Assembly: GCA_026417795.1 (NCBI GenBank)
Contig: JAOACP010000009.1
Coordinates: 1-64,000, forward strand
Length of the DNA stretch: 64,000 nucleotides
From: Thermanaerothrix sp.
Lineage (GTDB): Bacteria; Synergistota; Synergistia; Synergistales; Synergistaceae
Reading direction: 5' to 3'
How positions within the stretch are numbered: position 1 is the stretch's first letter; each line of letters starts with the position of its first letter. The notes beneath the pieces were generated by a model. It ran no database searches. It saw nothing but the letters and a program-made list of their open reading frames with translations, and had not been told where the DNA came from. Below are positions 42,372-53,684 of this stretch, in pieces. Both the position numbers and the translations under genes were made by a program.

Positions 42372-42424
42372 GTCTATTTGACAGAATGATCTAACCTCAA
42401 ATCTTGTTAATGGAGGTGCAGCCA

Positions 42425-43021
42425 ATGGAGCTTACCCAATCCTCCCCTTCGGGACAGGCCATGTCCGCCCTCGGGCGGATAGAGTTGGGGCTGGAGGACC
42501 TGGAGGGGGCCGTGGAGGTGTTGGCCTCGTCCCTGTCTTCGATAGAGGAGGAGTCCTCCCAGGTGGGCAAGGCGGGGGAGTCCGTGGACCTCCACGCCCG
42601 GGAGCTGCTCAAGGAGCTGGACGAAAGCGCCCGGGAGGCCAAGACGCCCATGGAGCAGATGAGGCAGGCCCTTGAGATCGGCCTTAGGGTTCAGGAGGAG
42701 GCCCAGAGGGACCGTACTATGCTGGCCCACACGGTGGAAGCGGTGAGGGCCATGGTCCGGTCCGCGGAGTCCGTGGCGGACTCCATAGGGCGCATAACCC
42801 AGGTGCTGGGGAACATAGCGGACATAACCACCCACATAACCGCCATAGCCAAGCAGACCAAGCTGCTCTCCCTCAACGCCTCCATAGGGGCGGAACGGGC
42901 TGGAGAGCACGGCAGGGGTTTCGCGGTGGTGGCGGAGGAGGTGCGCAAGCTGGCCGCCAGGACCAGCGAGGCGGCATCCAAGATAAGCGACCTCGCGTCC
43001 TCCAGCAGGGCAATAGGGTAG
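42425..43021 (+). CDS. Amino-terminal half: soluble chemoreceptor signalling domain
   Basis: 198 residues before the TAG. Helical throughout. The conserved receptor tip is present with small variations ([40 protein letters not shown]), so it could still contact CheW/CheA, but the return helix is cut short. No membrane or HAMP segment is visible. Confidence 0.7.
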
Positions 43022-43090
43022 GAGGCGTCGGAGAACATCGACCGGGCCCTCAACCTATCCAGGAACGCCTCGGACCGGGCGGAGGCCACC

Positions 43091-44077
43091 ATGGAGGACC
43101 TTAAGGACATGTTCGACTCCCTTTCCCACATAGGCTCCTCCCTCCGGCTGGGGGCGGAAGGGGCGGCAAAACAGCACGAAAGGGCCGAGAGGATGTCTAA
43201 GAAGGCCCGGATCATGGCGGACAGGGCGGAAGAGCAGGCGGGGCGGCTCAAGAGGGTGGACGGCAAGATCCGGGAGAACCGGATCATCATGGACTCGATA
43301 CCCATAAGCCTTCGGGAAGCGTCGGAGGCCCTGTGGGGGTTCAGCGACGCCGCCCAAGAGGCGGACTTGGGGAATCCTTCGATCGGGGCCATAAAGGAAC
43401 GGGGGGAGCTCCTGCTGGGCATAGAGACCGACGACTTCGGGAAGTTCCACTGGTGGAGGGAAGGCTCCCCAAAGGGGCTGGACGTGGAGTTGGGGGAGGC
43501 CATAGCCCGCCGCCTTGGGGTCCGCCTTCGCTGGGTGCCAATGGCATGGGGAAGCGGAGAGCCGGGCACCATAACCGGCACCTGGAACCGGGGAAGCTTC
43601 GAGGGCTTTGACTTCCTCTGCTCCACCGCCACGAAGCTGCCGGAGCGGCTTAAGTTCTGCGCCTTCTCCAAAAGCTACTTCCGGAGCGGCCAGAGCGTGT
43701 TGGTGCCCAAGGACTCGCCGGTGGACTCCCTGTTGGACCTCAAGGGGCTTAAGGTGGCGGTGACCCGGGGGGCCACCAGCGAGAAGGCCGCCCGGGAGAA
43801 GCTCAAGGGCTGTGAGATCGTGCCCTTCCCAACCGCGGTAGATGAGGCCAAGGCCCTTCAAAGCGGCAAGGTGGACGCCCTGGCGGTGGACCGGCCGGTG
43901 GCCTGGGCGTTCCTCGAGCAACACCAGGAATGGCGGGAGCTTAACGTGTCGCTTTCGGTGGAGAACTTCGGGCTGGTGATGCCCAAGACCGTCTCCTTGG
44001 CCCTTAAGGCCCTGGTGGACAGGGTGGTCCTTGAGGAGCGGGACAGCCTGTTCAGGAAGTACTTCAAGAACCCATAG
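43091..44077 (+). CDS. Carboxy-terminal half: coiled coil plus SBP_bac_3-type domain
   Basis: 328 residues from an in-frame ATG that follows GGAGGCCACC, so internal restart is possible. The first 110 residues continue the helical bundle. From about 115 on, a periplasmic-binding-protein-like fold appears: GELLLGIETDDFGKF, GLDVELGEAIARRLGVRLRW, WNRGSFEGFDFLCS, DLKGLKVAVTRGATSEK, GKVDALAVDRPV. There is no export signal, so it would sample cytoplasmic ligand if made this way. Confidence 0.6.
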   Translation: MEDLKDMFDSLSHIGSSLRLGAEGAAKQHERAERMSKKARIMADRAEEQAGRLKRVDGKIRENRIIMDSIPISLREASEALWGFSDAAQEADLGNPSIGAIKERGELLLGIETDDFGKFHWWREGSPKGLDVELGEAIARRLGVRLRWVPMAWGSGEPGTITGTWNRGSFEGFDFLCSTATKLPERLKFCAFSKSYFRSGQSVLVPKDSPVDSLLDLKGLKVAVTRGATSEKAAREKLKGCEIVPFPTAVDEAKALQSGKVDALAVDRPVAWAFLEQHQEWRELNVSLSVENFGLVMPKTVSLALKALVDRVVLEERDSLFRKYFKNP

Positions 44078-52725: not shown

Positions 52726-52826
52726 TTATGCATACCCCCCACATCTGATAAAATTCGCAAAGGACTATGAACTTAAGCATACCACGTGCTGTGGTGCCAA
52801 AACCTTTGGTGAGGGGGTCTTTTAAT

Positions 52827-53684
52827 ATGGCAGAAATGAAGATAGGTTTCATAGGAGGCGGCGACGGGGCACTCAAGATAATGCGTCACCTCTTGAAGCT
52901 GGACTTCAAGATAGCCGGGGTGGTGGACATCTCCGACGACGCCCCCGCCATGAGGGAGGCCCGACAGCACCACATCCCCACCTACACGAAGATGGAGGAC
53001 CTCTTGAACCGCCCCTGCGACCTCATAATCGAGGTCACCGGCCGGGACTCGGTGGCCCGGGAGGTGGAGGAGAAGAAGTCCCCCCGCACGGGGCTTTTAA
53101 GGTCCCAGGACGCCAGGTTCCTGTACGACATAATAGCCAAGGAGGAGGAGAACTCCCGGGTCATCGCAAGGCAGGTGGAGGAGATAATAAAGCTCCGGAA
53201 GGCCCTCACGGAGATGCTTCAGCCCCTCAAGGAGGCCTTTGACTCTTTGGCCTCGGGGAACAAGGACGTGGAGGGCACCATGAAGCCCATGTTGGAGGGC
53301 ATGGAGCGGCTCACCAAGGAGACCCAGCGGTCCGACGAACTTGTGAGCACCATCCACGCCATAGCCCGGCAGACCAAGATGCTGGGGCTCAACGCCGCCA
53401 TAGAGGCCGCCCGGGCGGGGGACATGGGCAAGGGCTTCGCGGTGGTGGCCGACGAGGTGCGAAAGCTGGCGGAGCAGACCACCGCGTCGGTGCAGGAGGT
53501 GGGGGACGTGCTCACCGACATAGCGGAGATCTCCAAGACCCTGGGGGAGCCCATAAGGCAGTTCAGCCAGGTGGCGGAGAAGCGGGTTAAGACCATCGAG
53601 GCCCTCAAATCCCAGGTGGAGGGGCTCTCCTCCATGGTGTCCGCGGCGGAGAACGTGGAGGCCCGCCTTAAGGAGCTCCTGTAG
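52827..53684 (+). CDS. Rossmann-domain / soluble chemoreceptor fusion protein
   Basis: 285 residues. About 1-110 form a dinucleotide-binding-type fold: MAEMKIGFIGGGDGALKIM, an acidic residue after strand 2 (VVDISDDAP) and CDLIIEVTGRDSVAREV. Residues 115-285 are a chemoreceptor signalling bundle with the canonical tip [39 protein letters not shown]. No membrane segment, HAMP or signal peptide. It should act as a cytoplasmic receptor whose input is a small molecule bound by the Rossmann domain, perhaps NAD(H) or a CoA-like ligand (inference). ATG 52827 follows GAGGGGG; the frame is open to 52767. Confidence 0.85.
   Translation: MAEMKIGFIGGGDGALKIMRHLLKLDFKIAGVVDISDDAPAMREARQHHIPTYTKMEDLLNRPCDLIIEVTGRDSVAREVEEKKSPRTGLLRSQDARFLYDIIAKEEENSRVIARQVEEIIKLRKALTEMLQPLKEAFDSLASGNKDVEGTMKPMLEGMERLTKETQRSDELVSTIHAIARQTKMLGLNAAIEAARAGDMGKGFAVVADEVRKLAEQTTASVQEVGDVLTDIAEISKTLGEPIRQFSQVAEKRVKTIEALKSQVEGLSSMVSAAENVEARLKELL

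Follow-up and report, generated by a model that had tools for sequence, protein, structure and literature searches.

The general view of cytoplasmic chemoreceptors is that they monitor the metabolism of the cell, and an internal ligand is known for few of them. The described soluble, HAMP-less receptors (HemAT, TlpD/CZB, and the cytoplasmic PAS receptors) place a membrane-free MCP hairpin behind a cytosolic input, which is a globin, a CZB/zinc domain, or a PAS domain. Aer and other energy-taxis receptors steer by the internal redox or energy state, with Aer holding FAD in a PAS domain and carrying a membrane anchor and a HAMP domain. In the redox repressor Rex, a Rossmann domain reads NADH/NAD to control a response, the output being DNA binding. 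The gene described here, from a window of 64,000 nucleotides of Thermanaerothrix sp. DNA (the whole stretch analyzed), encodes a protein that shares the layout and the internal sensing of the soluble receptors, except that its input is a Rossmann domain. Its proposed role resembles that of Aer, without the FAD-PAS domain, anchor, or HAMP, and it is related to Rex in concept while differing in architecture.

What is new is apparently the Rossmann input domain in a soluble chemoreceptor, soluble chemoreceptors themselves being known. We found no description of a Rossmann-input chemoreceptor in the open papers searched, which include few subscription journals, and the input domains listed in a census of Clostridiales sigma-54 activators do not include a Rossmann domain (PMC6615313). 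The initial annotation knew of no described receptor of this layout, which agrees with our search; the uniqueness that it implied was overstated, however, as many Bacillota share the layout and the input module also occurs on sigma-54 activators and histidine kinases. Since the layout is common in genomes, it is better called undescribed than rare.

The open reading frame is as given earlier, running on the + strand from ATG 52827 to a stop codon ending at 53684, and the three peptides by which its N terminus had been characterized, GFIGGGDGALKIM, VVDISDDAP, and IIEVTGRDSV, are all found in the translation. An alternative in-frame ATG, at 52767, has a purine stretch that lies too near. The gene is present in a single copy in its own genome. 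Its features are as follows.

52811..52817, + strand: GAGGGGG, the probable ribosome-binding site, 9 nt before the ATG (sequence)
52827..53684, + strand: the whole gene, a soluble Rossmann-input chemoreceptor of 285 aa (open reading frame and translation)
52827..53102, + strand: Rossmann-type input domain, residues 1-92 (AlphaFold, Foldseek, 64-relative profile, PF01408 matches)
52854..52871, + strand: glycine-rich loop G10-G-G-D-G-A15, a GxGxx(G/A) dinucleotide motif, kept in 63/64 relatives
52926..52928, + strand: Asp34, directly after strand 2 as placed by the AlphaFold model, conserved in 64/64
53031..53042, + strand: E69-V-T-G72 after strand 4, with Thr71 in 64/64 and Gly72 in 63/64
53103..53681, + strand: uninterrupted helical region, residues 93-285, from the last Rossmann helix into the antiparallel signaling hairpin (AlphaFold)
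53271..53678, + strand: MCP signaling domain PF00015, residues 149-284 (E=3.4e-29)
53370..53438, + strand: hairpin tip, the CheA/CheW contact region in a family variant (sequence, compared with the genome's other receptors and with relatives)

Taken alone, residues 1-115 give family scores that all lie below the cut-offs, with E values of 0.0074 for PF01408, 0.0096 for PF03447, and 0.00075 and 0.0013 for aspartate dehydrogenase models; among PDB sequences the match is a weak one to 2q7x (YvcK/UPF0052; E=0.0077), and PF01408 reaches 17.5 bits on the window protein against a cut-off of 24. The proposed match of these residues to nucleotide-binding families thus stays below cut-off for the single sequence and holds when relatives and structure prediction are brought in. 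An AlphaFold model of residues 1-115, built on a nine-sequence alignment, has a pLDDT of 94.3 and a pTM of 0.86, and its strands and helices come in the alternating order of a Rossmann fold. In Foldseek, this model matches acylating acetaldehyde dehydrogenases best (1nvm_B, E=2.4e-4, TM 0.69; 7z3s), and most of the hits that come next are further NAD(P) enzymes. A profile built from 64 N-terminal domains, searched against PDB sequences, likewise places this enzyme group first (4lrs, 6.1e-7; 7z3s, 1e-6; 1nvm, 1.3e-5) and also reaches Rex 5zz5, weakly (E=0.007). At E<=0.01, 49/64 of the relatives match PF01408 and 41/64 match PF03447; several pass the Pfam cut-offs for GFO_IDH_MocA and NAD_binding_3, those above the PF01408 cut-off of 24 including L044 (33.1 bits), L045 (32.9), and L066 (28.7).

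Because AlphaFold, Foldseek, and the independent profile of 64 relatives agree, we regard the fold as settled, as the initial annotation had it: residues ~1-92 are, by prediction, a Rossmann domain of the dinucleotide-binding type. A YvcK/CofD-type domain as the true relative was dropped, since both the deep profile and the fold give dehydrogenases. The nearest known structures are therefore the NAD-binding domains of acylating acetaldehyde dehydrogenases (DmpF, 1nvm; 4lrs; 7z3s), which have the same fold and the best profile match. Unlike these enzymes, the window protein has no catalytic or dimerization domain, and its Rossmann domain is an input module rather than part of an enzyme; the C-terminal catalytic domain of the PF01408 oxidoreductases is absent from it as well, and it scores below both cut-offs for the NAD-binding domains of the GFO_IDH_MocA and homoserine dehydrogenase families.

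The pattern of the module is GxGxx(G/A)...D...APx...E-V-T-G, and Ala45 is invariant among the relatives (64/64). The glycine loop and the acidic residue after strand 2 that mark an NAD(P)-binding Rossmann fold are thus present in 63/64 and 64/64 sequences, respectively. By analogy with such folds, Asp34 is expected to contact the adenosine-ribose hydroxyls, which would favor NAD over NADP.

The C-terminal part is a clear MCP signaling domain, with PF00015 scoring 102.3 bits against a cut-off of 34.6, and the motif encoded at its tip is not expected by chance. This contact tip had been called perfect; it is present, but as a near-consensus form, set apart by a family-specific K and G from the tip of several membrane receptors that this genome encodes. 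As the K..G variant is common to most relatives, it is a family trait and not a sign of decay, and the tip looks functional from its sequence. The C-terminal arm after the tip measures 86 residues, or ~12 heptads, where several of the genome's membrane receptors have 154-168 residues. By this length the receptor is short and may belong to the 24H class, which has ~12 heptads in each arm. The protein is soluble, as proposed: there is no membrane helix, the highest 19-residue Kyte-Doolittle mean across the protein being 0.93, and a Pfam domain scan gave no match to HAMP, PAS, or GAF. The direct join of the two parts is also borne out by the full-length AlphaFold model (mean pLDDT, 89.7; pTM, 0.52), in which the last Rossmann helix starts at residue 93 and runs unbroken into the signaling hairpin. 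With neither a HAMP domain nor a flexible linker in between, a change in the packing of a Rossmann dimer could reach the tip directly.

In Synergistota, the domain occurs in 13/188 genomes, representing 7 genera and at least 4 family codes, and always shares a single open frame with the MCP part. In the tree, all of the Synergistota sequences fall into a single clade, and the fusion is therefore inherited in this phylum. Outside it, a pattern scan recovered an MCP fusion in Gracilibacter, a shortened MCP part in an Oligoflexia bacterium, and a PAS fusion in Rokubacterium. A profile search then placed the domain in 109/399 sampled genomes of Bacillota, the phylum of Gracilibacter, and in 23/95 sampled genomes of the Rokubacterium phylum. 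A further 29 loci come from the top scores of the Bacillota sample and are thus not representative; they comprise 25 MCP fusions and 4 sigma-54 activators. Outputs were assigned by Walker-motif and Pfam evidence and, for L079, by eye as a sigma-54 activator. Elsewhere the domain is followed by PAS, Sigma54_activat, and HTH_8, by Sigma54_activat directly, by GAF/PAS with HisKA and HATPase, or by HATPase with a response regulator. Standing in front of MCP parts, sigma-54 activators, and histidine kinases, it is a shuffled, mobile cytoplasmic input module.

Two departures from the usual receptor layout were seen among these relatives. In three proteins of ~490-500 aa (L044, L059, and L063), some 200 additional residues separate the Rossmann domain from the MCP hairpin, and a Pfam scan of L044 and L059 gave no match in this stretch. 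In the Oligoflexia gene (L033:4968-5630), the domain sits on a shortened and altered MCP hairpin (PF00015, E=3e-9) with the tip LNMSVEAARLG; the receptor is possibly losing CheA contact.

A conserved nucleotide cleft, the lack of a catalytic domain, and the three types of output together argue for ligand sensing. We therefore favor, with a probability of about 0.5, a cytoplasmic chemoreceptor whose dimer binds a cytosolic adenine-nucleotide cofactor, most likely NAD(H), and couples it through the helix to CheA. The putative ligand would sit in the Rossmann cleft of the dimer, its occupancy would alter the packing of both Rossmann domains, and the change would travel straight along the continuous helix to the tip, altering CheA activity such that swimming tracks the internal redox or carbon state. 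If so, an intact cofactor site and a continuous helix would amount to direct steering by the level of NAD(H)/NAD or acyl-CoA. That motility is steered by redox state is a further hypothesis, built on the putative NAD(H) binding. In other bacteria, the same module would drive transcription through sigma-54 activators and phosphorelays through histidine kinases. The broader proposal, that this widely shuffled module is a general cytosolic NAD(H)/CoA sensor for chemotaxis, sigma-54 transcription, and histidine kinases, serving in Synergistota as a direct redox or carbon-state chemoreceptor, is tentative, at a little under an even chance. Should the module indeed be shared in this way, one ligand assay would inform hundreds of regulators of anaerobes.

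NAD(H) is the best-supported reading of the ligand from the sequence motifs, with CoA or acyl-CoA as a serious rival. Other Rossmann sites are occupied by CoA or nucleotide sugars, or stay empty, and in acylating acetaldehyde dehydrogenases the Rossmann site is reported to serve both NAD and CoA (the shared NAD/CoA site of DmpF). Since these enzymes are the nearest to the input domain by both fold and sequence, CoA compounds become the main alternative: the domain would sense acetyl-CoA or another fermentation intermediate instead of NAD(H) and so report carbon flux. CoA_binding (PF02629) is matched by 10/64 members at E<=0.01, but the CoA_binding matches seen in the Pfam scan of relatives lie below the cut-off, and the canonical GxGxx(G/A) loop, taken together with the Asp that follows strand 2 in every member, makes up the fingerprint of NAD, so that we consider sensing of CoA unlikely, if worth taking seriously. 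A different Rossmann ligand, such as NADP(H), a nucleotide, a nucleotide sugar, or a metabolite beside a bound cofactor, would be compatible with the span of PF01408 over NAD and NADP users and with the single-sequence match to YvcK/UPF0052. That match, however, covers ~45 residues of the glycine loop only and is outranked by dehydrogenases in the deep profile, and the invariant Asp34 disfavors the 2'-phosphate of NADP, which leaves this alternative with a slim chance.

It is also conceivable that the domain holds no small ligand and is a dimerization or docking module for a partner, for example a dehydrogenase, sensing by protein contact. No catalytic domain follows the Rossmann domain, and some cytoplasmic receptors are reported to interact with metabolic enzymes, as TlpD does with aconitase (PMC4820699). 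Across three kinds of output, however, conservation is strongest in the nucleotide cleft (the Gly loop, Asp34, and Thr71-Gly72), and a docking role accordingly seems doubtful. As for the gene being a fusion artifact or decayed, the weak family scores of the isolated N-terminal domain are what might raise the suspicion. A frameshift or an assembly fusion, which had been named as a possible source of the layout, is ruled out by the single-frame occurrence in the 13 Synergistota genomes; together with the fusions in Bacillota, the strong conservation of residues among relatives, and the confident fold of the N-terminal domain, this makes an artifact or decay exceedingly improbable. The preferred reading remains the chemoreceptor with a nucleotide cofactor, likeliest NAD(H), in its Rossmann cleft.

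The genome itself encodes the other parts of a chemotaxis system: the CheW domain is matched six times, twice in CheA-size proteins, and there are two CheB and two flagellin-family genes. Given these genes, the receptor most likely acts by controlling CheA. The neighbors in the window, namely, an alanine symporter, an amidinohydrolase-like enzyme, a HAD protein, an ATP-grasp protein, a cobalamin adenosyltransferase, and an ABC transporter, give no metabolic clue to the ligand, and the neighborhood is not conserved between families. Neighbors are kept only within close genera; one family, for instance, retains glucuronate isomerase, methionine-synthase-like, and BNR-repeat proteins.

Other soluble receptors were noticed in the same genome. 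In the window, a second receptor-like gene at 42404-44077 (+ strand) has a 205-aa MCP-like part with the altered tip ASIGAERAG that stops at 43021 with an in-frame TAG, and is followed at 43091-44077 by a 328-aa open reading frame with a coiled coil and, by eye, a domain of the solute-binding-protein type. From its sequence, this pair resembles an intact receptor elsewhere in the genome (L004:1357-2934, on C6), and the gene may have been broken or split. The intact receptor is soluble, with its tip near the N terminus and a solute-binding-protein-like domain (by eye) at the C terminus, the reverse of the usual order. A further soluble receptor, of 279 aa and with no evident input domain, lies 12 bases behind a 269-aa gene of the metallo-beta-lactamase fold, recognized by eye (L008:520-2181, on C25). 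A diiron oxygen sensor, ODP, paired with a receptor is known from spirochetes, and the arrangement at L008 resembles that pair.
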